DNA of 64,000 nt from Neelides folsomi (Eukaryota > Arthropoda > Collembola > Neelipleona > Neelidae). The notes beneath the pieces were generated by a model. It was not told the origin of the DNA and ran no database searches. It worked only from the letters and a program-made list of their open reading frames with translations. The translations under genes were made by a program, and so were the position numbers. Positions 1,587 to 61,000 of this stretch are shown here, piece by piece; position 1 is the stretch's first letter, and the number at the start of each line of letters is the position of its first letter. Location: assembly GCA_034687125.1 (NCBI GenBank), contig JAQGBZ010000001.1:558001-622000 (forward strand), written 5' to 3'.

Positions 1587-3786
1587 CCCTTCCAAGTCTG
1601 TCGTGGGTGGAGTAAATTGACTTTAATAACTGAGAAGTTGAGATAAATCGTAATAAAAGAAAGTAAGGGAACCTTGAGCCCCCGGACGATACGATAAGTC
1701 TCTATTGAAATTCCAAGCTCTGCCTTTTTCACGCACAGCTTCAGGGCTAAATTATGATGAATATTTTTTTCTTAAATCTCTGAAGAGGTTTCAATGGCTC
1801 AATGCTCAAGTTTAATTAAACTTGGAAATTGAATTCCGAGACTTAAAGTAACATTTTTCCTAAAAGTGAAACCCCATATCATCGAAATTGGGACTTGAGG
1901 GAATTTTTTTAAGTATGTATATAATTTGCATCTACTCGAATCTCATATTCTCACGTATCATTTGAATCATAATTATATAATTTTTAATCATATTTTATCA
2001 ATATAGCAAAAGAATCCTCAAATCTTGGGATATTGGAAATGGAAAAATCTTATTTTAACTTATTAAACTTTTCTCATACATTTCTAAAAATAAAATATAA
2101 AAATCACATTCAATTTTTTTCAATTATGTATGCAAAACATATTGTGAAAGCCAAAATCTACTCATATTGTATTTTACATTTTTAATTATATTTGTACTTT
2201 TATATTAATAAAATCTTGTTTTAATTTTTTCAACTTTATTTATTAGAAAAAAGTTTTTCTATTAAATTCCTAATTGTTTTCTTTATTGTCCAAATTAATT
2301 AACTACAGGAGCATAGAGAATAATAATTCATATTTTGCCATATTCTTTTTATAGTTGAAAAACGTGTCCTTAATAAAAATAAGTTCACCGCAAGTTTCTC
2401 TCAAGTTTCAACCTTTACTTGAACTCTGCCCAAACTTTGCAAAGTTAACCTATTTTAATACCTATAAGTTATGGTTTATCAACAAGAATTTTTTGCGGAA
2501 AGAATATTGGCTGAAAGCATAAGGTTTCTTTCTTTATCCCATATTAGTTATTTATTCTCCTTAATGGGCATTTAAAATGGATGAGCTTGGGATTGTATCG
2601 AATGATGGAATTGAAGGTAGATCTCTTCTATTTCCGTCCGACTAACTCAACCCATCTTGATTAAAGGAACGTGAAGTGGAAAGTCTGAAGGGACGCGTTC
2701 TCAACTCCTCGTGCCTTTTCCGGAACTTTCCAACCCTCAAAGGAGGAAAAAGGATATTTGAAGGGAAAGTCAACTTTATGTTCATGCATTGGGAGATCTC
2801 ATATATAGAGAGTCTCCAGACGAGTTTTTACACTTCCTCCTATGCTTCTCTCTCTCTCGGAGTATCATGATGAAGGATGAATGTGAGCTTTTACAAGTTT
2901 AAGAGAAAGGAAAGAAAGGGAAGTTGGGAATAGTCAACGCTCCTTTTCTCGCCTCTATTATCTTTCCAAAAAACTCTCTGCTCACTCTCGGGAGTCCGCC
3001 TAACTATGCACCAAAAACTCCCACGGCTCCGAGTGTAATAATGAACTCTGCCAAATTAGGACAAACTTATACTAAATAAAGTTAAACAACCCTTTTTTAC
3101 ATATACTGTATGAATAATGTATAAAAAATATGTTATGCATAAATATTAATAATTACACACTTACACGATATCACTGCAGTGCATATTAATGTAATTAAGA
3201 ATTTATTTTTATATCTACACTTAACATAACGTAAAAATTAACTAAAATGAATAATACCATATTGGTATGTATATATTAATTAAATAAATAGTATATTATA
3301 TGTAAGTATTAGTACCATATTTTATAATAACATTATGTTATATTGAGTAATTGTTATTTATTACATAAATTTTATAGTATTTGTATTATTTATTATTCAT
3401 AACAGTAAAAATTGAATTGTTTTATGAAATTGAAAAACATTTCATTAATAAAGCGCATCTGTTTGTGCCATTTAATTTATTGGAATGTATTAAAGTGTAT
3501 GTGATTAAGTATGATGTATGGAATGTAAGTTTGTATGTTATTCTTGTGTGTAGAATGGAGGGTGGACATGGAAGGAAATATTGGTGAAAGTACAGGGTGT
3601 AATTTTGGAACGATTGTATCTTTGAGGAAAGTGGAAGAGAAATGATATTGGAGATGTGCAGCGCAGAGAAAACTCCTTTGCGACTCGGAAGAAGAAGCTG
3701 AGGATCAGTTGGGAACAGAACTCCGCTCTGCACACAAAATCCCTTGCCAAAAAATTTACATCTTGCGTATTTCCGACACGTTGAAG
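1587..3786. other. Intergenic region between peptide gene and alpha8 gene
   Basis: Divergent intergenic DNA between the minus-strand peptide gene and the plus-strand alpha8 subunit gene. No convincing exon. 2.6-3.05 kb is somewhat richer in GC; 3.05-3.6 kb is very AT-rich. The alpha8 promoter and 5' UTR should lie in the last few hundred bases. TCAGTT at 3705-3710 fits an arthropod initiator, but no TATA box or matching downstream element was seen, so the start site is unplaced. Confidence 0.5.
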
Positions 3787-6700
3787 ATGAGGAAAAATAG
3801 GGAAAATTTCCCCTTTTGCCCAAGGATTAATGGGATTTTTAAATCATTGTTCGTCTGCTTCATCCTTCAAGGTAAGATTGGTAATTTTAATTGCTGGATT
3901 AAATAATTGGAATTGATTTCAGTTTCAGTGGATCGGATCGAGGGGAATCCTGACGCCAAGAGGCTTTATGATGACCTCCTTAGTAATTACAATCGACTCA
4001 TTCGACCTGTGTCAAATAACACAAATAAATTAACTGTGAGATTGGGTCTCAAACTTTCTCAGTTAATTGATGTGGTGAGTATTTCGAAATTAATAATTAA
4101 ATCAATATTAATAATCCACGAAACTATTTGTATTGATTTATCTAAATATATATGGTAAATTATAACTAATTCAAAAAAAATACTCACGCATATATTTCTT
4201 ACATAAAATAATGATTTATAGTAATTTAATAATTGTGCTCAACTTATCTTAATTTTGGTAAATATGCAAGAGTACGAATTAAATAGACAATGAGCTTTGA
4301 TTGCAAAGTCAATTAATTGTTAAATAAGCATAAGGTATTTTTCATACACTATTATTATGGTAAAGTACTCAGAGTCTACTATTTAAATATATTTTCAAAT
4401 CTTTCATAATAATGAAATAATAATTTATTTTATAGAACTTAAAGAGTCAAATCATGACGACCAACGTTTGGGTCGAACAGGTAAAATTCCAATTAATCAT
4501 CTAAATGAATAAAAACTCACTTACAATTTTATCTGTAGAAATGGACGGATTACAAACTCCAATGGGACCCAACTGAATACGGAGGCGTTGAGCAATTGTA
4601 CGTTCCTTCTGAACACATTTGGCTCCCTGATATTGTCCTCTATAACAAGTAAGACAAATCTAAATATTTAACAATACAAATTTTCTCATACCAAATAGCC
4701 ATAATAATTAACAATTGCCAACGGTTCATTTCAATCTCAGTGCAGACGGTAATTACGAAGTGACTCTGATGACGAAGGCAACTCTTCATTACACTGGAGA
4801 AATCGTATGGAAGCCGCCGGCCATTTACAAGTCTTCATGCGAAATCAATGTGGAATGGTTCCCATTCGATGAACAAAGCTGTGCAATGAAGTTTGGTAAT
4901 TTCATTAATATTAAAGCTCCAAACTGGCGGAGTTATATTATTTCCCAACCTTTGTTCTGATTTTCTCTTCTCATTCCAGGCTCATGGACCTACGATGGCT
5001 TTCAAGTAAGTAAACTTCTCATTTCTGATCCAACCCACATTTCTCTTTCTTCTATTTAATTTATATAAAACTTTGCTAATATAAATATAGGAGGTATATT
5101 TAGGCCTGCTCTGTATATTATGTAACCTAATAAAGTTGTATGAAGTACGATATGCCAAATTCCACTTCTAATCTTCTCTCTTTCTGTGAATGAGTTCAAA
5201 TGATAGTGGATGTGAGGAACTCAAAGTGTGTTCCGGAATATCATTTTCACTCTTTTCTCCCTTGAGATAAAATTGCTAAAAGGATGAGTCTCTCTATTCT
5301 ACCATTTTCTACCCCTATCGCTCCTAAAAATACAATTCGTCCTTATCTCTCTTTATTATGGGTTTAGGAAATTAAAAACTCAAAATTCTCTCTAACTTTA
5401 CTTGTACTATAACTTCATACATTACAATTAAGAGTATAAACTTTCTCATGGTAAACTTTTAAAATTGCAATTTCCTATAAGCGTATTTGAAACTGAAAAC
5501 TGAACAAACTTCACACTATTTAAAAAAAATTAAAAAATGTATAAAACCAAAAAAGCTACCTACAGAACAGATACATTGTTTAGATAACTTTTATTAAAAA
5601 GGACATGTAATTTGTATTTACTCTAAACAAAATTGCATATAACTATTGTAATAAAAGATATAAGTTTACTTATTAGAGTTATTAGGTAAATATTAAGCAC
5701 TTTGGAATAAAAAGTGAAATTTGAGAATAATCTTAAAAGCATATTGGAATGATGTGTCATATTAAGAATATTGAAAGAGGTCTGAAAGTGTTTGGGTTGA
5801 TGTGTTTAGGTTGACTTACAACATATGGAGCAGAGTGCTGGGAGCAACCTCGTCCCAATCGGTATCGATCTCAAGGAGTTCTATATGTCTGTCGAATGGG
5901 ATATCCTGGAAGTGCCGGCGAGGAGGAACGAGGAATATTACCCGTGCTGCATCGAACCCTACCCAGGTATCTCTTTCATTACCAACACTTACACTTTACA
6001 GCCCCATTTGGTCCATCAGTTAACCGGGAGTGAATTCCCGTCATAAATCCATCCCTATATAGATAAATGACTCCGGCCTACAATTACTCTTTCTCGAATC
6101 ATTCCCATTACTGCCAATACCCCTTTTATTCATTGGTCTGAGAGCAAGGAGTAAAAAAAGAGTAAAAAGGGAAAAAAGAGAGACCCACTTTTATAAATAA
6201 TGTTATTAGGTAATATAGTATTTTTATTGCTAGTAAAAAATATTCTTTTCCATTAGAGCTAAATACGCATCCACCATATGTTATACAATTAGCTAAAGTC
6301 CGCTATACTCACTATCAGTGTAAAGGCGCCAAGGTTTAATATTTTGATGAAATTTTAATCAATGTTTTTGACAGATATTACATTCAATTTGACTATGAGA
6401 CGGAAGACGCTTTTCTACACTGTGAATCTGATCATCCCTTGTGTGGGGATTTCGTTCCTCACAGTCCTCGTCTTCTACTTGCCGTCTGACTCAGGGGAAA
6501 AAGTGACTCTGTGCATCTCCATCCTCCTGTCACTCACCGTGTTCTTCCTCCTCTTGGCAGAAATCATTCCGCCGACTTCGCTCGCAGTTCCTCTCCTTGG
6601 CAAATACTTACTTTTCACGATGATCCTCGTCACTCTCTCCATTTGTGTGACGGTGGGGGTCCTCAACGTTCACTTCAGGTTCTCAACCAACTCAACCTGT

Positions 6701-7839
6701 CTAAAACAACTGTCTTCCATTCAAATTCACAATATTACCACGCTCCATTTCCAAACATTTCCCTATTATTTAAAGACAAAACAAATAAACAAAGTTCTAA
6801 TTTCAAATCTCACAAGAATTTAGACCATTTTTTATTTGATTCTTTTTTCATATTTATTCTAATAAAATTACATTTTTTGACAGGTCCCCCTCAACACACA
6901 AAATGTCGCCTTGGGTGAAGAAAGTGTTTCTAGAGTTTATGCCGCGGGTTCTTTGTATGAAAAGACCAGAATATCATCCGCGTTATGCATTCGAAGGAGA
7001 TTTTACAACTTCTGGAACGGAATTTGGAGCAAATTTTGGAAGGTGAATATGAAACTAAATATAAATTTAAAAATGTTACACAAAATGGAATTTAACTACT
7101 ACACTTATTAATAACGAAATAATTAAATAAATAAAATTTAATAATTTTATTATTTGACATTTTAGCACATTGAGAAGGGATAGTTATTATGACAGTAGTC
7201 CGAGAACAGAATCGAGTATTGATCATTCTCGACATGTAAAATCATTTTCGGATGAGTCAGGTAAGGAATCAAATTGAAATTAGCTTAATTATAACATAAA
7301 TAAAAAATTTAAAATTTAATTATTAATTTAAACATGAAATTAATTAAATAAAACTTTTTTTGATTTTTTTCTAGATATTGGGAATAGATATAGTCCAGAG
7401 ATCTTGGCAGCCCTTCAAAGCGTTCAATTCATTGCCCAACATATCAAAGACGAAGATAAAGATACGGAGGTTCGAATTCATCCATCATCTTTCAATTTCA
7501 CTATAAATTATATGATTATATGATGAAGTGATGATGAAGTGGGGCGATATTTAAGCCTGAGAAATGGCGACAACCCCTTGTTGAAATGGATTTAATGTAT
7601 GGGTTTATGGGTTTAAGGTGATTGAAGATTGGAAGTACGTGGCAATGGTTCTGGACAGACTATTTCTTTGGCTCTTCACCCTTGCTTGCATCTTGGGGAC
7701 CTGTGGGATCATTTTTCAAGCGCCGTCGCTTTACGACACTCGAACTCCCATTGATCAAGAGCTATCAGAAATTTTCTTTCAAAGATCTTCAGGACGAAGT
7801 CGCCCAGCCGTCAAAGTCCCAGAGACAAATGTGCTCTAA
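3787..7839 (+). CDS. nAChRalpha8: nAChR subunit, alpha8/beta2 type
   Basis: Ligand-gated cation channel subunit of the neuronal plasma membrane, binding acetylcholine as part of a pentamer. Exons: 3787-3871, 3923-4074, 4436-4480, 4539-4648, 4741-4895, 4980-5005, 5810-5966, 6375-6678, 6884-7042, 7166-7260, 7375-7469, 7618-7839; all GT-AG, all in phase, 1605 nt, 534 aa. ATG 3787 is the first in-frame ATG and precedes a hydrophobic signal segment (about 18-31). Mature chain starts near [10 protein letters not shown] (37). Loop A Tyr129, Cys-loop Cys164-Cys178, loop B Trp185, loop C Tyr235, Cys237-Cys238 (alpha hallmark), Tyr242; M1 about 256-278, M2 286-308 (GEK start), M3 320-342, M4 about 470-493. 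Sequons at Asn60 and Asn248. Alpha8/beta2 assignment rests on [40 protein letters not shown] and [10 protein letters not shown]; Drosophila beta2 is the same lineage without CC. The Cys-loop exon is split 155+26. Confidence 0.95.
4980..5005 (+). other. nAChRalpha8: 26-nt coding exon of alpha8 (loop B)
   Basis: This short exon (acceptor TCATTCCAG, donor GTAAGT) encodes most of GSWTYDGFQ, including loop B Trp185. The intron before it falls after the first base of Gly183. Together with the upstream 155-nt exon it equals the single 181-nt exon of the alpha1 gene, so it marks an intron at a position where the two neighbouring paralogues have none. Confidence 0.9.
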
Positions 7840-12255: not shown

Positions 12256-15200
12256 TTATATGTCCGTGTCTTCGTTTTGTCCGGTCGTGATCGTTCCGAT
12301 GGGAATGATCTTCGTCAGCTTCTTGTCAATGGCTTCTGAGTAGTCGTAGAGGGCCGGGGCCTCCAGCAGAATCATTATCGTCCCGGCAAAAAAGGCCGCG
12401 TTGAAGAGCATGAGGAAGATCCGATCTAAGACCATGGCCACGAAGCCCCAATCTTTATCCTCCTAAAATATAAATTAAATTAACGTTAAACTAATAAACA
12501 AATTGTATCATAAATACTCCTGCAGTCCAACACACAGATACCCAAATACAAATACATAATTATTGTTAGTTGTTGACAAAAACTTCACAGAAGTATCTAA
12601 TACATATTTTTATTAATAAAGATGATAAAATTATAATTTAGAATAAATGTGAATGGCTAAATAAAAAAAATGAAATGAGTACTTTATACTATTAAAAGTC
12701 AAATACATAAATATTAAAAAAGGTCAAATTGGAACAATTAAGTTTTGAACAAAGACGGCGAATAAATTCCTAGGCTTTGTCTTAAGTAAAAGATAATTCA
12801 ATATTGGGAGTGGAATGAACCAACTAATCTTCCTCCTCCCCATTTAATATTGACAAATGGATGGGTTTTATTAGATCTTAAAGTATTTTTATGAGTCTCT
12901 CCGCCTCCTGGGACTGAAGTCCCGGGAGAGAGAAAGACGGGAGATGACGGAGAGTTGAAAGGGGCCGGGTGGATCGCAGCTGGAGTGAATTTGGAATGAC
13001 GTACCGAATCGAACTCATCTTGTCGTTGCATATGTGTCTGAATGAATTGAACATTATGGATGGCTTTTTGAATCTCGAAGGGATATTTTTTCCGTTCAGG
13101 CGGCGGGCCGTCGAGGCCGTAGGACGTCGCGGAGCTCGTGGGTCCGGGAAAGCCCTCCATTGCCCCTTGCTCCAAGAACCCCGAAAAGCCTTGGAGACTG
13201 AGGCCGCTGAGTCGGGACACTCCTTGGAACCCGTTGCAACCCTCGTCCCTCCCCGTCGGCGACCCACTTGGACTCGTCCTCGCTTGAAATGAGTCCAAAA
13301 ACAATTCACATATTATTATTTCTCACTCTACGTTATTCATCTATTCAACAAATTCAAGGGTCTTTCGATTTTTTTCACTAAATTCCCAAAACAAAAGACT
13401 TTGTTTTAAATAAATCTCGGATTTTAGGGAGATTAGGACAATGAGTTTGGACCTTGAATACTAAACAATGTTCATTTATTCAAAAGAATTCATGTTCATT
13501 CAATAGTGAATGAGCGAATCCTTTCTCATTCAAGAATTGAAAATTCACAAAATTTAAATTTCTAGAATTGAAAATTCCAAAATTCGAGGAACTGGAAGTT
13601 GTTAAGGGGGAAAGATTGTTCATTTATTCAAGAGGAAAGAGATGAAGAAGACAAATAAAAATTTACAAGTTGCTAATTTGACACCCTTTTGGGGGATTGG
13701 GGGTAAGAAGTGAGATTAAGGTGGGAGATTAAGGGGTATTAGGTGGCGGAGATGAGCCATAAAGGGACGGTTCAAGTACCTTTTGAGGGGTAGTTGAGGA
13801 CGTGCTCGGGAATCCTCATGAGCAAACACTTCGGGAGGAGTCTGGTGAAGAACCACCGGACCCAAGGAGCCATTTTGTGAGTTGACGGCTTCCGGTAATG
13901 GACGTTGAGAACAATCGTGGTGACGAGAACAGAGAGGCCGACGAGGAGCATGGTGAAGAGGAGATATTTCCCCAGCAGAGGAACCGCCAGGGACGTCGAC
14001 GGGATGATTTCGGATATGAGAAGGAAGAACATGGTCTGGGAGAGGAGGATCGAGACACAGAGGGCGATTTTTTCCCCCGAGTCGGCCGGGAGATAAAAGA
14101 CGAGGATGGAGAGGTAGGAAATCCCCACGGTGGGGACGATCAGATTCACCGTGTAGAAAAGCGTCCGCCGTCGAAGAGTGATGTTGAAAAATATATCTGA
14201 AAGGAGAGTAGCCGTCAGGACGACACTTTCAACCCCCTGTCACAAAACTCGTAAATGGAATAAAATCCTCTTTCAAACCTCTGAGCAGAATAATGAGGAA
14301 GTGAAGGGAGAGAAAAAAGAAATTAAACAGAAAATTGAAAAGAATCATCGTATTAAGAAAAGAAGAAGAATTTATATAGGAATAATAATTGGACAAAGAT
14401 TCCATAAAATAATAATTCGGGATTTTGAATTATGATTCCTCATATCATAAATTACAAGAATTCTCATTTCCACTTCCAATGACATTAAACACTTTGTTTC
14501 TCATTTGATTGATAATACATCTTGAAAGAAAAAGGCGACATGTATTCCTTATGACTTCTTTCTCATGATTTCTTTTTCCAACGATTTATTTCCCCCTTTC
14601 TTTCAACATCATTTCGACTCTCACAAGTGGCAGAAATGAGAAAGAAGGTAAGTAGAGGGAATCAGACAGGAAATTGATGGATTCCAAATAGGTTAAAGGT
14701 TCTTATAAGTAAAAACTTGTAAGTTAACTATAGCAGATTACACGGAAGCTTAACAGAGTATATAAGAAGAAAGTATTTATTAAAGTTATAACGAAAATTG
14801 AACCTTGGAATGGCTCGGGACAACAGGGGTAGAATTTTTCATGTCTCTCAGCTGGAACTGAAAGGATATCCCATTCGACGGAGGGGTAATACTCAGTTAA
14901 GTCAATACCCATTAGTACCAATTCTTGTCCGGGCACTTGATCGATGTGCTTCAAGTCAATCTAAAAGAGACACAAATCCACCTGTAATGCTACATCGATG
15001 CTCATCGGCTTAATTATTTAGTTTATTCCCATTCTTTCCCTACGTTCTGTTTCCCTATTCTATCTCTTCACAGGGCTTAACTACATATTGCTACTTGATA
15101 TTGTAGGGATTCATGGCCCTTATTTTCCCATTAGCTATTTCTTGCTACTTCGCTATTTCTATCCCCCTTTTGCTTTCACTTTCACTTTTGGTCATAAAGG

Positions 15201-18200
15201 GGAAGATAGGGAAATGTATAATAGATGCTGACTCCTTGACTCCTTGGCTCAAGCAGAAACTGAGAGTGTCTTGAAGCAAGAGAGAAACTGAGTTCACCAA
15301 ATGGAAGCACAATATTCCATAATTCATGAATTTCCACTAATGAATCTTAAATTCTAATTGAATTTCGAATCAAGTGTCTCTCCCCTTCTCTCTGACCCTT
15401 TCATCTCCCATCACAAACGCAATTAAAGATGACTCTTGAATTTTGATGCGCCCAACTAACGAGATTGAATAGGAATAACATTACGGTTAACGAGTCAAGT
15501 TCTATTATAGGGGCTCCAGATCATGCCATAACAGTGAGTGGAGAACCCCCATCCCAAACTCTCAATTTTAATAATGATAACAATAATGCTCAAAAAGAGA
15601 TTCCCAGTTTGGATAAGATCAAATTCCCATATCATATTTTATATACGTTTAATGCCATCATAATTCTTCATTTTCAGATTCTCATATTACAAATTATTAA
15701 AATTCTCATTGTCTAATCACATTATTTCTCATATGTAATATTCCCCCTTATTTAACCGTTTAATATTCTACGGATGATAAAAAGGATAAGGAAATCTCGT
15801 AAATATTAAATTGACTAAAAAATGAGGGGAAAGGCTTACCATGTATCCATCATAAGTCCAAGACCCGAATTTGAGAAAGCAGGTTTGCATATCAAAAGGG
15901 AAGTATCGGACGTCAATTTCACATGAAGATTTGAAAATGGCTGGGGGATTCCAATGAACCTTGCCGTCAGAGTGAAGTATGGCCTTTGTCATTGTAGTCA
16001 CAACGTATTCTCCATCCTGGGAGGAAAATCGTCATTATTCACCCGGGATGGTAAATTAAATCATGCACAATGGTTAGTCAAGCCGGGAGATTTATTCCTC
16101 CTTGCCACTTGATATTAACCATTTTAAGTTTTATGAATATCGATTGAGAAAGCAGATTTAAATTTTTATAGCATATGAAAAAGGGGGATTAGCATAAAGA
16201 TCGCATTGCGAAGAGAGAGATCATCTTCTTACCGCACTATGATGGAAACGGAAAATTCGCGGAGCCATGAAAAAAATGAAAATATTAGGAAAGAGAATAA
16301 ATTTTGAATTTGAATAATAGAACCAAACTCACTTGTTATAGAGAACAATATCTGGAAGCCATATGTGTTCGGACGGTACATAGAGCTCGGAGACGCCTCC
16401 ATACTCCCTCGGATCCCATTGAAATTTGTGATCTTCCCATTCCTGCAGAGCATGCTCTTTTTAGTGAGAAAGTTCCTACTTCCTTCCAACCACCCAGGAT
16501 AAACCCTGGTCAATACGAATACGAAAAGATAAATTTCTTACGTGTTCGAGCCAAACGTTCGTCGTCAGGATCTGATCTTTCAAGTTCTGGAACAAAAAAC
16601 AGATTTTATGAGATCAATTATATTTATAATTTATAATCCATTCTTTCAAACTCTCAAAAGTTCCTCAAAATTAAATAAGATTTTGAATTTAACCATTTTG
16701 TCCTAATTCAGACTTAGATAACTTTATTTTTGACTAAATAATGCGTTTTGGCCAAATGAGTTTTGACAAAATAATGTGCAACGGTTCGTCCGGGTTCGTG
16801 GTGAAGTATTAATAAAAGGCTGAGTTCATAGTCCATTATTTCATCTGTGGATATTTGTACAAACTGTATAATTAGTTAATTACATAACTCAGATTGATAA
16901 TTGAGTGTTGAATCGTCAAGATTATAAGAGGCAGTCATGTAAATAAACGAGTACCGCAGGTTTGAATATACTATGTAATTGAGGGGCTCAACGCGTCGAC
17001 GCTCAATTATCATTGAACTTGTGATTACATTAGATCTAAATGGGATCGGGCCGTCTAAACTTCCTCTTTGGAATGTCATATGGAAATAATGCTTGGGCTT
17101 AATATCGCCCATTTCTTCCAACATGGGCCAATGAGGAAGGATCCATAGATTCCAAATGCAGTCGTAATTGAGTGTATTTGTAACAAGTGAAAGTAATGGA
17201 TTTGAGGATGAGTGGATGCGGATTAATATAATATTACATTTCCTTCCCGGCAGATCATTAAGTCTTTAGATTAAATTACAATTTGAAGGAATAAAATCAT
17301 TGAGGCGAGACAAGGGACCGTTTCCATTGTTCCATTCTGGGCCTATACATCGGGATGAATTCCATTCTCGAGTAAGATTGAATGTTTGGGTTTAAAGCCT
17401 TGGGAGTTGGGAGAGCCATAATTCATTATATCACCGTACTTTATCTTTAGGTCCCTGAATACATTAAGTGCAAAGCACATTATTCTTACTTTCCATCAAA
17501 AGAGACTTTCTCGCACTGCACTATTCCACTATATGAACTACTATATGCTGTGGGTATCCCAGTGTTTAGACTCTCCGACTTTGTTCCGCTCACTCCACTT
17601 ACTTATTCCTTCCTTTGGTTATTTATTTATCATCTTTTCAAATTTATCTCTTCCGGAACAAATGCTTTTTTCACTATCATCTCCTAAACCTTGAATTTTA
17701 TTATTCACGAGTGGATTCTTTCAATATTTCATATAATATTTACCAAATTATAAAATAAACAAAACTCCCCCGTTTTGACAATCAGTACAAAACAAAAGGT
17801 AATTTGTTGATGTAAAATATTAATCCGCTCGGATTCAATTCAAATATGAAATGTTAATAATATAAGTCACGTTTATTTTGAACCGACATTTACGTGATTG
17901 TTTTACCCAACGTTGTTTAACATAATTAAAGTTCCATGGGTGGAGAGTTATATTGGTCCAATGAGGGTTGTGTGTATGAGTGATAAACGTCATGTAAGGA
18001 TTGTAATTGAATTAGGAGCCTTTGGTTTGCAAAGGAGACTTCTTCTATAATTTAATTTCCAATTCAGAGGCTTTTAGCATAAACAAATAACTTGCTAATT
18101 TTCTTGAGTGCTTCAAATTCTTAAATTAAAAATAATGACTCCCCTTTGATCACACTTTTAAATAGTTAAACACATTCATGGGGAATTTAAACTCTTTAGC

Positions 18201-21200
18201 AATTCTCTTTTTTCCCTCTTTTTCTCTCAAACCCCACTCGCATTTTACTCCTTTTAATGGACGTAATAAGGAGAACCAATAGCTCTCAAGGACTCAAAAG
18301 AAAGTTGCCGTTTTCTTCAACTCAACCATTTCAGCCCTCGCGTCTCGACAGAGCAAACACAATTAAGGGTCAGAAGGGAAAGCTCACAAAGCTCAGAACT
18401 TGCTAATACAATTTTTCATAAAAAGTTCATAAAAAGATCAACAACGTCCGCCTTCATTTGACGGACGATAGATAACAAAAAAGACTTCTTATAAACAACA
18501 CGTACCTACATACCTAATACATATACAGATATTTCAAAGCCACTATTTTCATATGTGAGTAACTTTTAGCAAAAGTTATATAATGAGTACTCTAAGATAC
18601 ATAGTAAATATTATATTTTAGTTCATAATATGAATTAGCTCATATAAATATATGACATAAATTGGTATATTTTTATACGAGAAGATTATAGGGTAGATAT
18701 GTTCCTTATAATATGGTTTTGTGCCAAAAAAAGAACTTGGATTCTCTTAGATCTCTTTTGAACAATTTTCTTATCATTTTTGTATTTTCAAAACTTCCCA
18801 ACTTTCCCTTTATACACTCATGTCAAAAGGAGGAAGTCCCAATTGTCCCATTCAAACTTTACATTTTAGACACACAAAATTCGGAATCTGTACAAACATT
18901 CAAAAACTGATAGGAGCGCAGTGTTTTCCTTTCCCATTTGCCCCCTGGTTCATTATTTATTCAAATCCCTTAAAATTCACAATTACTCTCAATCTTTTCC
19001 ACCAGATTTGAAAAACTAACTTTTCAGCTCTTTTTAATAATGTTATATCTTAACTTTTGTATCCATCTATCTTTATAAAGAACTGTAGTTAGTATGTTTT
19101 AATAAACTTTAACTCCCTTTATCAGTAATGGTGATTCAGGATATTGAAAAGGGATTGAGGAATACAAGGCAATCTGTCAAGAGGGCTTAGAATGATATTT
19201 AGAATATTATTTAGTTGTGAAAGGACATAAAGAGCAGTTAAAAAGATTTTCCCTTCACTTACATATCTCCTTAAAGGTTTAACATAAAAAAGGGTTCCGT
19301 ATCAGGTTCGCAATTTTATTCTCCATAAAAATTCGAACATCCATTTAAACCTAAAGACTAAAGGCATGAAATTTGATATTGGATAAAGGCGTTGGCCATG
19401 CCAAGCTCAATAAATCCAATAAAACGTTGGAGAAAGGGCTATTTGCCATCGTTATTACCTCCTAGAATGGCGATACTTTATCATAAATTGACCACAAAAA
19501 TATCGAGCCAAACCTTTTCCAATTTGAATTTCATGAGACTCATTTTTTCACAAATATACATATTTAAGAAAAAATGCAGAGTAGAATGAATAAACTTGTT
19601 TAAATTAAACATAATGTAGTCTTGTATGAATAATACACCGTATATGTAAGGTACATTCTTGCCTATACAGGTATGATGTTACATAACATGCTAAATAAAT
19701 ATTTTGATTTATAACTTTGCATATTATGAACAATGCATGGCAGCATTTAAGTTTTTCTATAAAACCATAAACTTTTGACACGTGCACGTTTGAAAAGGAT
19801 CAAGTTCAGTATTTTATAAAGTAAATTATGCAAATATGAATATTTAAGTTTTGTCCACGCTTGGAAAACTTTAGCCCAAAAAGTGTCGAATTGTTCCAAA
19901 CTTTTGGAAGGAGGAAAATGTCATTCTCCTCAAATTCCTGAAAAGGATCCGAGGAAATGTTGTGAGAAAGTTAAGGGACACCTCACGTTTCCCAAAGATG
20001 AAAACTGCTGGGAGGTAAATGCAATTGTCTCAAATAAAATCCATCGATTTTCAATTCAACGGAGTATTGAGAAGTGGAGAAATGAGCTCCAGAGACACGG
20101 AGGGGAAAAAGACAAGAGAGAAGAAGAAGCTCCTTTCCCAAAATGTGTGTGGTTCACTCGTGTGATTCCAATCTTGTTTTCTAGCTGTTGGAATTACAGT
20201 AAAAAGAAGGCCATTATTCTAACAACTTCCACACAGCTCCTCAAGTCCTTCCAAAGACACGGGCCTTTCATTACCTTAATCTTAATTTAATTCCATTTTC
20301 TCCTACTTTATCACCCAAAGTTCCACAATATAACTAATGGAGAGAATTGAGCCCCAAGCCATTCCCATCATTGTACCTCTTTTACTGCACAACTAGAATT
20401 TCAATCATTAAATTACCCAAAGAGCCTTCTTATATGGGGATTACACGTGTGTGTTTATTTCAATGTTTAACTTTAAATGGCCCTTTAAATTCTTTGTTAA
20501 GGGCCAAATAAACTACAATTTCTGATTAAAACGACTATAATCGATTCATACTAAAAGCTGCGCTGGTTGTATATTATACATTTTGTATTTTCTTACATTT
20601 TGAAACTTTGAAACTGTTTTCTTATATTTAAATTGTATTGGATTTTCCTTGTGGTTGAAGCTGTTTTTAATGGAATAGTCAAGATACAGGAATAAAGGTT
20701 GAGGGCTAAGCCGTGTGGTAATGCAAGGCATAAATTCAAACCTGCGGTTTTTAGACAGATGCCCTGAATTTATTTCCTGGAAGTGCCCTGGAAGGGGAGA
20801 ATTAAAGAATCGCGAGTAAATTGCGTCCTTTTACTTTTTTTTAACTGGCCATTTGGAGTTTTGGAGAATTTATATTTTCCCGTTTGTGGTCAATGTCGCG
20901 GTGAGGAAGTGCGTAAAGAGGTAGGGAAAATGAATGAGAGAAGTTGGCCCTGGTTTAAAAGGAGTCAGCCTCTGAGCTCATCTCATTCACATCCTGAGCC
21001 GCATCGGGGGAAATTCATTGATGTTCAGGGAAAGCTTCTCTATCTCTTCCCATCACTTGGGCCGTTGAAGGCCCAATGGTTCTTCTGAAAACACATTATG
21101 GGCAAAGTAGGACGAAATTCGGTCGCCGAATGCGGGGAAACCTTCAGGGTTCTTCTTTGATGGGAAAAGCACCTCTCCTTCCATTTTCTCATCTTTATCT

Positions 21201-23298
21201 CTTTGTGGCACTCTGGAGACTCTCCATACATTTCCCACACTCCGACTCCCCTTTCCCTCGACATCGCTCAATCAGGACGAGGAGGACATTCTAATTTTTT
21301 CCAGATTCAAAAACTTGGTTGGAATTTTGAAGAAATTCGCCCGTCGGCCAAGATTAGTCCCCGAGTCTGGGATGAGAGTGACAAGCATTAAAGGTGGTTA
21401 GGGACGGGGCGGAATCCTAATGGAGGAACTATTGATTGATACTTATAATAGGATTTTATGTCCATTACAGACACCGAGTCCATTATCCGCCTCTCTGGCT
21501 CTTCTTCAGACCTCAGTGGAGGAACAATGGGGAAATGAATCCTAATTTCCTCCTGATTCTTTGATGGTCAGTAATAAATTAGCAACTCCATATTGGCACC
21601 TTGTGTACCAGGAATGGGTCTGCAGTAAAAGAGGAACGATAATGGTATGGAAGAATCTTAAACCTCACGAGCCCCTACATTTTCTCGGAATTAATATTAA
21701 AGGAGAGGAAACCCTGAGGAGGGTTATGTGGGTTATAAAGGGAAAGTCTTCATTTAAAGTTTACCCTCTCATCCCTTACAAGTTTATAACTTTACCTTCT
21801 CCGTGTTTCCTCCTTCGGTCGCTCGGTTTCTCTCCTTTCCCATTTATTTTATGCCGTTTTATATTATTCTAACTTATGGTCTGCAACGGAGCTTCACTCC
21901 TACTTGAGACTTGAGAGCTTTCCGAGTCTCATCAGCCTCCATGCCTCATCCACACACGAGTTACTCAACTTTTGGGACTGTAAGGCCAACTTTACTGATT
22001 TTTCAAACTTAAATGAGAATCGAAATTTCCCTCGCTGCGCGCTCTCAAGGACCTGCCACTCCAAGGAACCTTTTTCTTTCCAATTTCGCCTAATTAAACT
22101 TTTCATGTTTTCCCCAGGCTTCGATTCAGGCCGATTCAAACAAGAATAATCATTGTTCAAATTGCAATTTATATGCAAGCAAAGGAATATATTTATTTTG
22201 ATCCAAACATGTATTTTTACATTCTCTATAATATCCAATTTCAGTTGACTATATGGTTATATCCTGCGATGAAAGGGAGCCTGCAAGTATAACTTGCGAT
22301 GAAGAGGGAAATTTGAATGTAAAAGTTTTGAAAGATAAATTGGAGGAAAGATGTGGGGATTGTATTGAAAGAGTTTAAATAGAACTTAATTTTTTCCTCA
22401 CCGACCTTTTCTAATGGTAATTTATGGTAAAATATAACTGGTTTGGAGAGATTGATCGTTTTTTGTGTAAAAGTAGGGAAATCCGCTTTCACCTTTTGGG
22501 TCCATAAGGATGAATGTGAGAGTTGGTTGTAAGTCTCGTATATACATTTAGAGCTTAACCATCTCTGTTGTCTCTCCCCTTCATAAGGTCTTGGGAAAGT
22601 TATTTAACTTGGGATTTGGAGCTTTGTTTTTCCTCTAATCCAACAACAAGGTTGTTTTTCTCCGAGTCAACTTGTTTCTTTCCCATTATCCCTCATAACT
22701 ACTGGTGGGTTGCCATTCATCCTACTTCTTCCGAGTCCTTTCCTTGGATCCTCGAAGCTGTCAGGAGATGCGGGGAGCATCTGTATGCATACCGCTGTCA
22801 CGACCATTCATGCTCGAATCCTTTATTCTAATATCCCCCGTGCTTCTCATGCCCTTTATGCCTCCCCATTTGGATAAAAACTAGGGCTCGTTCATTGAAG
22901 ACTGCATCCTGCACCGTGTGCGAGCCAAATCCGCCTCTTGGCACACACAACCTCAAATCCCGAAATTCGGAGTCTGGGAACCCGAAATCAGAACGCCCGA
23001 AAACGCGAAATCCAAACAAAATTAGGTCTATGTAGTTCTCCTCCGGTGGAAATGAAAGTTCGGACAAAGGTTGGATTTACGGGTCGGAATTGTAATTCGG
23101 AGGGCGTACCAGGTCAATGAGTTGTGAAAGGCGGAGGCCGAGTTTGACTTGAACCGTGTCCGTGTTGTTCATGACGGGGCGAATGAGGCGGTTGTAATTA
23201 CTGAGGAGGTCATCGTACAGCCGCTTGGCGTCGGGGTTCCCGCTGCACGGCATGAGGACGATGCCGATGAGGCCGACAATCCCAAGGAGAACCTGCAT
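12256..23298 (-). CDS. nAChRalpha2: nAChR alpha2-type subunit
   Basis: Acetylcholine-gated channel subunit, complete, 1584 nt, 527 aa. Minus-strand exons in order: 23110-23298, 16542-16586, 16333-16442, 16233-16236 (4 nt), 15840-16016, 14804-14960, 13780-14196, 13005-13282, 12256-12462. Start ATG 23298 heads a clean signal peptide (1-20) followed by [10 protein letters not shown]. Loop A Tyr113, Cys-loop Cys148-Cys162, loop B Trp169, loop C Tyr219, Cys221-Cys222 and Phe226 (usually Tyr). M1 about 240-262, M2 270-292, M3 304-326, M4 about 467-490. Sequons at Asn44 and Asn232. The alpha2 call rests on [57 protein letters not shown] and [11 protein letters not shown], all typical of insect alpha2. 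Odd points: Thr250 replaces the usual Cys in M1 (LIVPTVGIS), and a 4-nt microexon is needed to keep frame. Intron 1 is 6.5 kb. Confidence 0.94.
16233..16236 (-). other. nAChRalpha2: 4-nt microexon (TGCG) of alpha2
   Basis: Exon 3 ends CTATAACAA and the next obvious exon begins GATGGAGAA, so four bases completing Asn115 and encoding Ala116 of the invariant NNADG motif are missing. Direct joining shifts the frame, and extending the exon upstream meets a stop before any other AG. The intervening minus-strand sequence holds CCATCATAG-TGCG-GTAAGA: a good acceptor, four bases giving AAT GCG, and a near-consensus donor. 4+177 equals the 181-nt exon of alpha1 and the 155+26 of alpha8. Flanking introns are 96 and 216 nt. 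Confidence 0.87.
16587..23109 (-). other. alpha2 intron 1 (6.5 kb)
   Basis: Long intron between the signal-peptide exon and the 45-nt exon. I saw no nested gene, RNA gene or mobile element. The longest frame inside, 19883-20290 on the plus strand (135 codons, GTG start), shows no recognisable domain. Moderately GC-rich blocks (19.9-20.3, 20.8-21.4, 22.6-23.1 kb) alternate with AT-rich ones. Confidence 0.55.
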
Positions 23299-52000: not shown

Positions 52001-55000
52001 ATAATTCCTCCCATTTTACTATTAGTCACCAGTCTCACAAACCTCGAAACAAGAACGGTTTTAATTAAATACATACTATTAACAAATGATTTACTTAAAT
52101 GATAAAGAAAGAAATGAGAAAACCCCATATATAAAACCAACTAAATTGAATTTTATTTTATTTTAGAACCTGAAGAATCAAATTATGACTACCAACGTAT
52201 GGGTTGAACAGGTAATGTTTTTTCTATATATCTAAATATAATAAATATTATACAATCATGTAGCAATACAATATTTGCAGCCGTGAACCGTAATATTGTA
52301 ATATTTCATGCAAATAAATACATTATTTAAAATGATATTATTTAAAATATGAAATAAATTCAGTTTTAATTTTGTTTATGTTTAAATAAAAATAATATGA
52401 AGGGGAATAAAGAAAACAGAGGAAGGAAAAAGACTTGAGTTAGTTTCTTATTATTATCTTCATTCAAACAATAAATTGATTTGGGCCATTTGAAATATGA
52501 ATGAAATGGGAGGAAAGAAAGTCAATTTCTATGCAAATGGAATATGACGATCTCTGGGAGGAAAGTTTCAAGAGGGACATTTCGATGAATTGAGTACGGC
52601 TGAATGTGAATGAGCTTGTTTTGGACCCTTTATTTGTGGGGTTTTGGGGAATTGGATCTTGCAATATATTTAGATGAGATGCTAATCAGATTCAAATCAA
52701 TTTGTAGGAATGGCACGACTACAAATTGACTTGGAACCCGGGTAAGCCACAGCTGTACAAATTCCTAACTATTTCATACAAATTCACATGAAGGTGAAAA
52801 GAATTAACCCTCACTTTCCTATCTTTTTATCGACATTTAGACGACTATGGCGGTGTTGAGACGCTTCATGGTAAGTAAACCATAATATAAGCATTTACAT
52901 GCAAAATTTCGACATTACCTATATTTAACATTATAATACAGGTATAGCTAGCCCATTTCCCTATCCTTTGGTATAAATTGTTTATTCAATAATTTTCTAT
53001 TGTTTACTTTCTCCGTTATTTTCTTTTTACAATATTTTCCTAGCTATTTTGCATATCTTGTATATTTTTCTAATTATTTATTACGTTGTTTATTTAAAGT
53101 TAAAAGTTCGATTGACAAACTTTCGAGAAATCTACAAAACCATGTTAAATAGAGCAGGTTAAGTTAGATAAGATTGGGAAACCAACAATGAAATACAATT
53201 TCATGTGTGGAAAGTGGCGCCCAATGATTTTAGCATGTTTTTGCAGACTTCCCGAATGTAATCCGTTTGATCAAAGTGGTATTTTCATATTAGTGGGCTT
53301 TTACTCGAGTAAAATGTGATTAGTTTGGCCATCAAATTGGAAAAGTTTATTGAGTGAATTCTCTTTGTGATTTTAATAGTTCCATCGGAACACATTTGGC
53401 TCCCTGACATTGTCCTCTACAACAAGTAAGTTGGTTTTTATCTCTTTTCTACCCTAGAAATTCCCTTAATGCTTTTTCCAATAATACTTCGTCCTAACCT
53501 CTCATTATAAATCATTCCCTCTGCGATCATCTTCTCCCGCTCTCCAAAGGGTAATTTAAACCCATACGGTAAATTAGGTAATCCTCTTAACGAGCTGCAA
53601 GGTCGTAAATTGAGAAACAAATCTCCATCCTCATGGTTGGTCTTATCACACGGAATCTCATTATTTTCACGCTTCCCTCTCCCACTTTTCCATCATGCAT
53701 CAAGAACCCAATGCTTTCTCTGACTTCCCTATAATTAACTCATTAGGTAAACGTGGGAGCGAAACGTGTTCATTTTTGAATTTCAACCCATAAAAGTAAT
53801 TTTATCAAATTCAAACAATCGAAAGAAACTTTCAAATTCCAACTTTTGTAATTAAACAGAGAACTTGGATCGTCGAGCACGAAATGATGTGTATTCTCCT
53901 ACGCAAACCACAAAGCTCCAACTTTCTTTTTCTATCATAAATCTTGAGATAAGTTGGGGCTGACAAGAGGCAGGGGCTTTCTCATTATACGCTCCACTTC
54001 TCCCTCCTTGGGCCACAAACATCAAATATACACTTATTTCGCTATTTATTGCCACAAAACCCAAATTGTATTCGAGGACTATGCGAAATGACGGAAATGG
54101 AGACGGCGGATCAAAATTTAAACCATACATTATGTATGGTGTTTGTGTGTGTATAGCACAAATAAAATATCCTCTTGTAAAATTTATATGGAACCAAATA
54201 TCTCATTTTATACTGTTTTTTATATATCTTTTATAGTGGAAATTTATACCACAATATAACAACATTTATTTTTATATCCAATATACCAATAATATACATT
54301 GTATGTATAGACAAAATTTTACATATATTTTTTATATGCAAAATTGCGTCTCACAATATTCCATGCATATATTACTGACATATAACTGTACTACATGTAG
54401 TTACTTTAATACACATCATATATTATTTTTATATTTAGTATTCATATAACTAGATATAAAATTTTATGTATTGGTATGCGAGTTTTATATCAAATGTTAT
54501 GATATAGAGAAATTGTCTGTATTGGTAGGGTTTTTAAATAAGAGTGTAACATAGTTTGAAGTGGTATGAAATAGGAGAAGGAATAAAAATGGGGCTCATA
54601 AACTTGAGGCGTCACTAACGTAGTTGGGTATTCTCGACGTGAGCCTGTTTCCGCATAAGATTCCCAAGCCCTGAAGGGGCTCTTGAAAGAGTGGAATCGA
54701 AAATGGAGCAGCCTCTTCAAAATAAATTTTAAGATGGAGAGGGAAGGGGAAATAATATCGGAGAGAAAGTTGGGGAATTTAAGGAGGGAATGACAAGGGA
54801 AAGATGAACGATGAGCCTTGGAGCAATACGGACCATTTTTCCTCACAATTTTTTGAAAGGATGCCAAGTATTGAGTTGGGAAGAAAGGAGAGGGTAAAGG
54901 GGAGGGATGCGGACCCAATGCAAAATCCTTCAATTTCACACCAAACAAGCTGAGGGATTTCTATGGCCTTGTCATTCCCCACTATGTTCGTATACTAACT

Positions 55001-58000
55001 CTATAAAATCCTCTCACTTATAAAAAACCTCACTGATAGAAAGACCTTCATAATCTAAACCCCATTTTTGTTTATGAGGGCTCTCGAAGAATTTTTATTT
55101 TTGAGAGAAAATTCAAAGAATTTTTTATTACATTAAATAGGTTCACCTACCTCTACTACTATAATTTATTCGAAGGGAAGTGGTGAGGGAGAATAAAATT
55201 TTATTCAATTTATTTTATATTTATAAATAAATGTGCAACTATTCTATGTACATAAAACCGGAGAGTTAAAATTTTGAAAAAATATAAAACAAGTTTATGG
55301 TTATTTTATACTTTGTCTGCTTATATGAAATATTTCACAATGAAAATGAAAGCTAGAGAGAATTTTCGGTTTTTAAAAGGGAAATAAAAGACTGACGGTA
55401 TGAGTAATGGATTGAATTTAGAGAGCTGTAGTTTTTTAAGTCTCGCCATAGGGTTCAATTTCAATGATATCACCATGTTCTAGAGAGAGGAAAATGAAGT
55501 TCTCGCCCGGAGATAAAACCCATTTTTCTCTCACGGAGAACCGCACAAAAAAATGAACATGAAAAAATTATGATAATTTTGTCATATAAGAATTCAAAGC
55601 TAATCATTTCAATTCTCCACAAAAGTAATGTTTCATGTTTTAGACATGGGAAACAGATTGTGCGGGAGTTTTAAACATTGGTGGATTGATCTTTAAAATC
55701 TTAAAACTTTTGTTTTAAGACTTGGGGTCGTTGGGGTCTTGAGGTTGTTTTGAAAATAACTCTGGGTTTAATTCCTCCTTATGGTTAGATTAGAGTTAAA
55801 TTGAAACAAAGTGGGTCATTACACGGGGAGCCTGAGAGATACAAAAAGGAGAAGTGGGTTAAGGGGCAGAAATTAAAAAGGGAATTACGGGGATCATCAC
55901 CATAAACCTCGAGGCTCACGGAGCAGAAGAATAAATTGACCGTTAAGAACACTTCCCTTTCAATTAAAACAAGTATTTGTGCAATTTTTCCTTCTCAAGG
56001 CGGGTCCGCGTCTTAGAACCCATTTTGCAGAGAGTCGAAGGGACTAAATTATTACCAAAGCTCCACTTCAATTTAATGTGCCCTTCTGCGGAAGACACTC
56101 GGGAGTTATTGCCCATGTTGTAGTTCCCCATTCTCTCTCCCCATTTAATTTATCTCGCACTTCCCTCCCTCACCGATTTATGTAACAGTCAAAATTTGAA
56201 ATTGTAACGAGGAAATTTTACTCTGACCATTTGGCACAGACTCGTTTAATTGAAAGATAGGACCATCCATAAATCCTATCCAGCTTCAATGCATAAAAAT
56301 GTCTTCCAGGCGTGCGAGTTCGCGCCATCTTGATTTACCCATGTTTTCCATTTTCCACATTTAAATCAAATTTGAATCTTCAAGTTATGACATGACCTTA
56401 TGAGTTATAACCTTATAACATAACTATAAATTTTATTATCAAAGGTGGAAAATGGAATTTTCTATATAAGGTTTACCATATTGCCTTTTATAATATATTT
56501 ATAATATTATTAAATTAAAAGAATTAGAAAATTAAATAGAAGTGATTTTCGAATCAAATTTTTGTACGAATTCATATTAGGTATTTCGCAAATAAAAATC
56601 AATGTATTTGCATAAAATGAAGTCCATTGAGGATAAAGGATTCAATAAAGATAAGCATAACTTGCATAATTAAATGGGTTGAATAAATTTTGGTGTAAAC
56701 ATTTGGAAGTTACTTTCTTGGAGAAATGCATTCCACACAGATGGTCTTATGGAGTTATGGAGAGGGGGAAAGGAGGAGGCGTAATTTTACACAGCGGTAA
56801 AGTCCCTGATTAAAGGCCCAGTAATTATTTAAACTGCGTTGTAAATGTTGTGGATAACGATGGTGGAGGTGATTTGCCTTAATTTGATTTTTCTCTCTCC
56901 TTCCAGTGCTGATGGGAATTACGAAATTACAATAATGACCAAGGCCATTCTCAATTATACTGGGACGGTGAGATGGAAGCCCCCCGCCATTTACAAATCA
57001 TCTTGCGAAATTGACGTGGAGTATTTCCCATTCGACGAACAAACCTGCACCATGAAATTCGGATCATGGACCTACGATGGTGACATGGTAAATTAACCTC
57101 ACATTTAAACTCTAATGCCCGGGCGTTTCGGTGCCTGGGCTATTCACAGAGAGACAATGGTCTGGGGATTTCAAAATGGTGGGAAGATTGGAGAAATGGT
57201 GGGAAATTGGAAGGCACAGGTCCGAGAGTCCTCCGAACAATTAGGGACATTATCTCCAACTTCCCATGTCTCTATTATATTTTATAGTCTTTCCTCTCGC
57301 CCTCGAATAAACCCTTATCTCTTCACCTAACGATCACCTTCCCCCATTACCACCAGGGCAATAACGGCATAGATAAATTTTAACTGCGACACTTTTTATT
57401 TTAAATGAAACAATGAGATTCACTTGTGACGTGAAGTCATCATTATACGAATATATTTTTATGTATAGTATCCAGTACTTTTTTTATACATACCATACTT
57501 ACCTACATTATATTAATACTGATACACGTTTTGGATTTGAGAGACAAGATGATCGTTTTAATATCAAACTCAATCCTCGTTTAAATAAAGTGGGCATATA
57601 AAGAAAGTTTTATAATGGTAATCTCTCCTGAGTTCTTTTCCATTCCGTCTCTGACAGTTCCTTTTGGAGAATCCTCTTAAGCTCCGTCTCGTCTTGTGGT
57701 ATTTAGATAATATCAGAAAAGTTTTTATTCAACAACCCTCGTCCTTCAACACTTCTTTACACATTTCTTCACACTCAAATCTTCATTTATCTATTTACTA
57801 TTGCAATTTTCATAGAACAATATGGGAATAAATATTAATATTTCATACGAGTATTTTACATCTCGTATCTTGAGTATAAAGAGCATATACGATAGTACGT
57901 AGTTTCAGTAGGTTATGAACACATAAACGTAAATGAAGAAACAAATTTAAACTTTTGACATAATAATATTCTGAAATGTTCATTTTACAAAAAAAACTCT

Positions 58001-61000
58001 TTTAAAGCTTCAAGCTGTATTTTAATGATTTGAGAAGATTTTAAGAATTGAAATGGAAGTAGAGCGAAATAAGCCTCGTCGTTTTTCTTTTTCTTATCAA
58101 CTCTGACATCTCCAGAAAATGAGTTTTGGTGAAAGTAATGGAACCGGTCGCATGGTTTACAACCACCATTCTTCAGAAATTTGATATCTTTTTTCAAAAT
58201 AGATAAAGAGTAAAATATTGAAGAGCAAAAAGTTTCCAAGTTTAGCCCATCAGCCCCACTTGGATGATGATGATGACCAGGAAGAAGATAAAAGTTTTGG
58301 AATCTTTCTCCACTCCAATTCAATTAAATGTTAGAAAAAATAAATGGAAAAACAAATTACCCAGCTAATCCTAAAAACTAATAAGGGAAAAAACTGTAAG
58401 TAAGTAGCTCTTGAATTGTGTGGTTTAAAGAAACATTTGAGTTTATTTTCTCTCCAAACTATTTCTATATAGAAGAATGTAAAATCTGGCATACTTACAC
58501 AAACTTTACATACTTATCGTTAGAATACTAAAACTAGATAAAATAAATATTGTAGCCATTTTAGCTAGATTTAATTGAGTGCATGGCTCGCGAGAGTTAG
58601 TCAAGGATTCATAGCAAGATTTAGTTAACTGTTTGTATATGTAAAAGCTAGGCTGACTTATAGTGGGAGTGCTTACATAAATATAAGGGGATTTAGTCGA
58701 TTGCACTATAGGGAATATTTTATAAAATACTTTACATAAGGGTTTTGAAGACAGAAGAGATTTTGTTGTAGCAAGCTCAATTCACTTGACTGCCATTTCC
58801 ATTAGATGATGAAGAGGGATGGTTTTTTGCCGGGGATTTACAACCGCTGGAAAGAGCGGAATGAGATTAGGAGAAAAAAGAAGTAAATAGAAATGAAATG
58901 AAGCAAGGAGGAGAGTCGAAGAAATTCGAACATCTCTTGACTGGATTGAATTTAGATAAGATCCAATCGGTCCGTTTGACTCTTAACTTTTCTCTCTGGA
59001 AGTTTGAGAAGTCTTGGAGGAAGTTTGCGGTCTTCTTTTCCTACATCACTTGTTTCCGTATCTGGAGCACATATCTGGGCTTGACTAAGCAATAAGAGCC
59101 ATTTGGAGGAGAAAACCTTTCTCCGCCCAAACTTTTCTCGGCCCAAATAAACTGGATGGATTACGCTAAATTTTTTACCAGCCTCCTCCCATGGCATAAA
59201 TATCGCTTCATTTTACACAACAAGGCAAAGTCGAAGTAAGTGAGTATAAGAATAAGTCGGCTATGAAGCCACCCGGGTTTTTCCTGCGGGATTCTTCTTC
59301 CGACTTCCGACCTCCACTTCCCTCACTTCATGGCCCCTGATATTATATGACCTTTTCATTCTTTTATGGCTCTCTTACCCCAAACATCATTTTTCACATC
59401 AAACCCTCTTTCCTCTCCTCCTTAACTCATCAAACGGGGGAGTTATGGGGGAAATCTTCATTTGACACGAACCCAATAAACCACGAGTTTATTAACTGAG
59501 CCCGCCCATTACTCCGCCAACTTCCTGAATTATACAAGAATTCCTATAAATTTATTTCCAAAAAAGACTCGGAATTCTTCAGCCTTCTCCTGAGACATAT
59601 TTTATTTCATGGGTATCATAACTTTAATTTTAATTGAAAAACTTTTCAAATTACAAACTCCTCTCGTGCTTTAATAATTTAGAAAAAAATTCCATCTGCA
59701 CACGACTCAACAAATAGAATTTGAGATGATAATTATTTTTTCCCGAGTTTCTCCCTTCATTTACCTAACTATGCATTTGTCAATTAAAGAAAACTCAAAT
59801 AACTTTTTTTAAAATCAAAGTTAATTTCAACATTCACTCCCAGGAAAGAAGGAAAAAGAAAATCTTTTTCCCATGATGGTAGAAATTCAATAGCGAGGTT
59901 TAGCATGTAATCACTTTGTAGGAAGGAAGATGAAGTTCGAAAAAGATGTCTTAAAATAATTAAATTTTGTCATTGCGTCGTAAAAAGAGAGACATATGAG
60001 ATCTCATACAAGATCATGTTGAAATATATAGCGGTTTATAACTAAAACTGTACACGTACGTATGAGGGAATAAATGGAGAAGTCAGAAAAGCGTAATAGT
60101 AGCGTAGAAGTGGACAAACACTTATGCTTTCTCTACACGATTTCCCTCTTTTCATTTTCATCTCATCCTACGGCAGTTTTGGGGAATGTAAAATGCTCTT
60201 AAAAATATAATGACTTGAGGGGTATGAGAAGAAAAAACGGAGAATAAAGGAAATGGGAAAACATTAAACTTTTCTCAACCTTTCCCCTCATTTCCTCAAG
60301 CTGTGTGCCTAATGGTAAAAAATGTCATATATTATCATTTTCCAGAGAAAATTACATATAAAATATCTCAACTACTTAGTTTTTTTGAAATTTCAATTCC
60401 ATTTTACCTGCTTATAACCCTTACACGCACTGTTTACGACTTTGGGTAAAAATAATATTAGAAAATGAAAAATCTCATAAATAAAATATATCTGCATATG
60501 TATGACAGGATATAAAATTGGAACAAGAATTGTAAGGTGATATACAAATATTATGTGATACTGTAACAGACATTATGATGGTTAATATCATTGATATTAA
60601 AAATTATATGACTTATATGACGATATATGAATCATATGATATGACATGATATGATATAAGATAAAGGAGACTTTCGAATTTCTCAGTTTTTCTTCAATTC
60701 ATCCATGAGGTTCAAATGGCCATGTTTAACAAGACAGTAGATCCGAAATAATAGCTGACACGGAAATATAACACAAGATTTTCTTTTTCAGTTTGATCTT
60801 CGGCACATAAATCAAACGGTGGACTCGGACGAGATCGAAATGGGTATAGATCTCCAGGACTATTACATCTCTGTGGAATGGGACATCATGAAGGTCCCGG
60901 CCGAACGACACGAGAAATACTACAGCTGTTGCGAATATCCCTACTTGGACATCATCTTCACGCTGATCCTCCGCCGGAAAACTTTGTTCTACACCGTCAA

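Follow-up and report, generated by a model that had tools for sequence, protein, structure and literature searches.

A nicotinic receptor gene of Neelides folsomi appears to contain a real, most likely constitutive coding exon of four nucleotides, TGCG. It would represent the start of an ancient exon whose counterparts in related genes open with [TC]GCN; in this gene, the gain of an intron would have cut off the exon's first four bases. On the sequence evidence set out below, we assign this reading a probability of about 0.92.

The window analysed here is a stretch of 64,000 nucleotides from a genome of 75.1 Mb in 840 contigs, in which the ligand-binding-domain family yields 76 exon-level matches. 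Three nicotinic alpha-type genes occupy the window on alternating strands, at ~4400-7000 (+), 12256-23298 (-) and 53400-61300 (+). The gene with the microexon lies between the two genes that a first-pass annotation had named alpha8 and alpha1. That annotation called it alpha2, a name we treat as tentative, the sequence placing it no more closely than among alpha-type subunits. It was assembled as nine exons at 12256-23298 (-) with an open frame of 527 codons (Table 1). A Pfam domain search of its product returned PF02931 (259 bits) and PF02932 (225 bits), both above cut-off, and the best match among solved chains is the neuronal nicotinic alpha-4 subunit. Vicinal cysteines are the criterion for an alpha-type nicotinic subunit, and the subunit is classed as alpha-type because exon 6 carries YPCC. 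Judged by its Cys-loop ligand-binding and membrane domains and by this motif, the gene is one for a nicotinic receptor alpha-type subunit.

Table 1. Exons of the microexon gene and the two introns that flank the microexon. The membrane helices of exons 7 and 9 are named as we take them to be from general knowledge.
Feature	Position	Strand	Description
Exon 1	23110..23298	-	Start codon (putative) and signal peptide region
Exon 2	16542..16586	-	45 nt; donor GTAAGA
Exon 3	16333..16442	-	110 nt; ends ...PDIVLYN + AA; last bases TATAACAA, then donor GTGAGT
Intron upstream of microexon	16237..16332	-	96 nt, phase 2, GTGAGT...CATAG
Exon 4, microexon TGCG	16233..16236	-	4 nt; completes Asn (AA-T) and encodes Ala (GCG)
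Intron downstream of microexon	16017..16232	-	216 nt, phase 0, GTAAGA...CCCAG
Exon 5	15840..16016	-	177 nt; begins GATGGAG = DGEYVV; probable remainder of ancestral exon
Exon 6	14804..14960	-	Contains YPCC vicinal cysteines
Exon 7	13780..14196	-	First three membrane helices
Exon 8	13005..13282	-	Cytoplasmic loop; predicted borders, least certain of the gene; acceptor ends AAG
Exon 9	12256..12462	-	Last membrane helix and stop

The interval between exons 3 and 5 contains AG-TGCG-GTAAGA at 16236-16233 (-), flanked by ...TTTCCATCATAG and GTAAGAAG, exactly as the first-pass annotation had reported it. The 316 bp given there is the whole interval, and comprises the 96-nt intron, the four bases and the 216-nt intron. 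Translation with TGCG included gives LYNNADGEYVV and keeps the frame. Skipping it, which the annotation had rightly said would destroy the frame, gives LYNKMENTL-stop, with the stop after six codons, at codon 121 of the whole protein. Retention of the 216-nt intron gives NNAVRR-stop, and retention of the whole 316-nt interval gives NK-stop. Since skipping places a stop at codon 121, no whole receptor subunit is expected from skipped or unspliced messages. Two neuronal receptor chains of known structure (8ssz, alpha-4 and beta-2), which we take to be human, have the peptide LYNNADG at the corresponding position. At four nucleotides between splice signals, the exon falls within the limit of 15 nt (<=15 nt) that we use for small coding microexons, and it is required for the conserved frame and peptide. 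The claim that TGCG is a 4-nt coding microexon required for the frame is thus supported by the frame itself, by its uniqueness in the interval, by the homologous exons of the same genome and by the solved chains with NNADG.

Spliced alignment with a purpose-written aligner gave the same structure: the microexon was chosen with all 12 queries, 10 of them relatives from the same genome and the other two the 8ssz alpha-4 and beta-2 chains. When the acceptor AG of the microexon was blanked, every one of the 12 best paths lost between 20.6 and 25.6 score units, and in each of them (12/12) the exon-3 donor shifted four bases on, taking in an in-frame TGA. The proteins of the 10 relatives came from alignments seeded with the microexon gene, and in their DNA the Ala codon runs directly into the codon after it; the two solved 8ssz chains are independent queries. 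An earlier alignment that used the gene's own assembled protein was circular and is excluded from these counts, as are the 12-nt exons that the aligner drew in poorly conserved parts of two loci (L025 and L027) and other small exons drawn in poorly conserved parts of distant loci. Exons of 3 and 11 nt in the divergent locus L029 (G000:C173:72500-80500, 3224-5978) were dropped because the use of a better, ordinary acceptor lying 26 nt upstream allows the exons to be joined directly and in frame.

We scored the splice sites with position weight matrices built from 34 introns of receptor genes, taken from four loci scoring >900, hand-chosen from six lower-scoring loci, and including three other introns of the microexon gene. 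The exon-5 acceptor scores at or above 32 of these 34 comparison introns, the exon-3 donor at or above 26 and the microexon acceptor at or above 18. The microexon's own donor is low, at or above just two of the 34; by inspection, this is because GCG precedes the GT, as GTAAGA itself is also used by exon 2. Within the 96-nt intron, AG is confined to positions 4 and 95, and there is a branch-point-like CTAAT whose presumed branch A lies 48 nt from the intron's end; in the 216-nt intron, a similar CTAAC motif places the presumed branch A 57 nt from the end.

It has been argued for such exons (excerpts of PMC4674806 and PMC8831610) that so short a sequence leaves no room for the two splice-site complexes at once, and for these four bases we therefore infer splicing in two steps. 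The introns, at 96 and 216 nt, are of lengths that suggest intron definition. The 96-nt intron would be removed by intron definition, joining exon 3 to TGCG; the product would carry a rebuilt donor, ...AACAATGCG-GTAAGA, which would then be used to remove the 216-nt intron, and the reverse order of the two removals is possible. The microexon is most likely included constitutively and spliced in two steps. A mechanism of the same kind, intron definition with stepwise (recursive) splicing, is suggested by the authors who described the constitutive single-nucleotide exon of Arabidopsis APC11 (PMC4674806, in excerpt); that exon is one base long, from a plant and experimentally tested, whereas the exon described here is four bases long and read from sequence. 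A zero-nucleotide recursive splice site, in which AG directly abuts GT within a long intron, was rejected, as four coding bases intervene here and the interval is 316 nt.

Four-base coding microexons are already known as a kind because human MPC1 and TNNI1 have them, and no skipped forms of either were reported in the cell lines tested (excerpts of PMC9929638). Like TGCG, these exons are four bases long, coding and not a multiple of three. They lie in different genes, and a common origin with the exon described here is not suspected. The MPC1 exon has long introns on either side, which contain the exon-definition region that handles it (PMC9929638, in excerpt), in contrast to the flanking introns of 96 and 216 nt found here.

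The alternative that survives best is that TGCG is a regulated cassette, non-inclusion of which would give a truncated, decayed message, so that the exon acts as an on/off switch for the subunit in the Srrm-type (eMIC) manner. We consider this unlikely. Skipping would indeed shift the frame into a stop after six codons, and several features that excerpts of PMC8797185 describe for the neuronal eMIC/Srrm microexons of Drosophila are also seen here: short flanking introns, a long AG-free zone, a strong upstream donor (26/34), a low-scoring donor of the exon's own (2/34) and a CTAAC branch-point motif downstream. The weak own and strong upstream 5' splice sites rest on these scores; the long AG exclusion zone, short introns and strong branch points were judged by inspection, without a published threshold. 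The same Drosophila exons are described as having a UGC motif near the 3' splice site and an extremely weak 3' splice site (PMC8797185, in excerpt). Here, by contrast, no TGC occurs anywhere in the 96-nt upstream intron, and the acceptor is mid-ranking rather than weak (18/34). Also against a switch are an exon length not divisible by three, the longer exons that the homologous codons open in relatives, and the 4-bp microexon of human MPC1, which is reported as constitutive in the available text of PMC9929638. With cis features so mixed, the on/off switch is speculation. A fuller version, in which a gained intron severed four bases of an ancient receptor exon and their inclusion later came under cell-type-dependent regulation, acting as a switch on the amount of subunit made, would in our view be improbable.

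Among the 16 aligned loci from this genome, 11 besides the microexon gene have a phase-2 intron in the same codon. In 10 of these 11, [TC]GCN opens the following exon, which then runs on without a break, and in the eleventh, L029, the exon is likewise unbroken once the acceptor is properly placed. As drawn, the next exon measures 181 nt in alpha1, 155 in alpha8, 181 in L022, 297 in L023, 206 in L024, 184 in L025, 91 in L026, 181 in L027, 78 in L034 and 73 in L035; these differences stem from other introns, and the lengths are less certain for the divergent loci. The alignment of L031 has no intron at the homologous place, and L028, L030, L032 and L033, all distant channels, aligned with weak scores (103 to 134).

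In the same window, both alpha1 and alpha8 share with the microexon gene the phase-2 intron before TGCNGA and the peptide NNADG, but neither has a 4-nt piece: the homologous exon is a single piece of 181 nt in alpha1, 155+26 in alpha8 and 4+177 in the microexon gene, an arithmetic that the first-pass annotation had correct. None of the nearest relatives (alpha8, alpha1, L022 and L023, at 65-69% identity) has its exon split here, and a within-genome tree of 10 rows gave no settled branching of the microexon gene with these four. The simplest history would be one of intron gain in this gene: the new intron interrupted the ancient exon after its fourth base, and the old acceptor was kept.

A source for the presumably gained intron was looked for within the genome. 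A genome query made up of the 216-nt intron plus 27 nt from exon 5 matched itself only, in a search that skips very common words; origin from a repeated element was rejected, no second genome copy having been found in that search. Origin as a copy of the older intron was rejected as well, as 25 of 500 shuffles matched or exceeded the local similarity between the two, which is therefore not convincing.

Intron positions vary elsewhere in the family. The alpha8 gene (~4741-5005, +) has an extra intron of 84 nt, 155 nt into the homologous exon, that is absent from alpha1 and from the microexon gene, and this intron therefore indicates repeated shifts of intron positions in this receptor family. 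Locus L026 has an extra intron 91 nt into the homologous exon, and L022 and L023 have one that follows GEK and precedes the second membrane helix; these extra introns suggest intron turnover in the family. Such variation is what could be said for the converse history, in which the 4-nt exon is ancestral and the lack of a second intron in the relatives reflects loss there, not gain here (the extra introns of alpha8 at 155 nt and of L026 at 91 nt being the cases in point). That history needs loss in all 11 other loci examined, the four closest genes (65 to 69% identity) among them, and we regard it as very improbable; gain in the microexon gene is the reading we retain.

The match is also rarer than had been supposed. 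The first-pass annotation estimated that AG-YGCN-GT would arise by chance once per about 8 kb, which proved too generous to chance: we counted five sites, including the microexon, in 128,000 positions (both strands of the window), or about one per 26 kb, giving an expectation of 0.012 in 316 nt. It had added that the donor makes a chance match rarer still. The microexon is the only one of the five sites with a GTRAG donor; its splice score is 9.0, versus -4.2 to -10.6 for the other four. In a first-order Markov simulation of 20,000 intervals, with the first 8 and last 25 bases fixed, the pattern occurred 40 nt or more from both ends in 51 intervals, and in none (0/20,000) did its splice score reach that observed.

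No competing exon was found in the interval. When internal exons of 1-118 nt with GT-AG borders were listed, each intron being required to measure 40 nt or more, TGCG was the only candidate to keep the frame; any other internal exon within these limits was thus rejected, and a 1-nt exon of the form AG-Y-GT does not occur there. Placing the exon-5 acceptor further upstream was rejected too: an in-frame TGA lies five codons before GATGG, and the acceptor is fixed because these five codons hold no other AG. That there is no microexon, the large exons being joined directly or via another insert in a gene that is broken or uses another splice site, could draw on the low score of the microexon's own donor, but it is highly unlikely given that direct joining of exons 3 and 5 hits a stop, that the interval offers no other in-frame internal exon within the above limits, that the acceptor before GATGG cannot shift upstream, and that the remaining exons give a 527-codon open frame with both Pfam domains.

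Microexons of 4 and 5 bp are given for eight human genes only, some of them non-coding, in excerpts of PMC9929638, and in the open-access literature, of which our coverage was partial, no title among the matches listed named a nicotinic receptor microexon. The expectation of the first-pass annotation that gene finders tend to miss such exons agrees with excerpts of PMC8831610, which describe annotation missing very small exons in plants. Nicotinic receptors of this type are targets of neonicotinoids (PMC7419010, in excerpt). Four-base, frame-critical coding exons are very rare, and the history of this one can be read because relatives in the same genome keep the start of the parent exon whole. 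It would provide an example of how such an exon can arise, by an intron landing beside an older intron. Where the microexon is missed, the receptor protein would be predicted wrongly just after loop A, as we take the ligand-binding loop immediately before the microexon site to be named.
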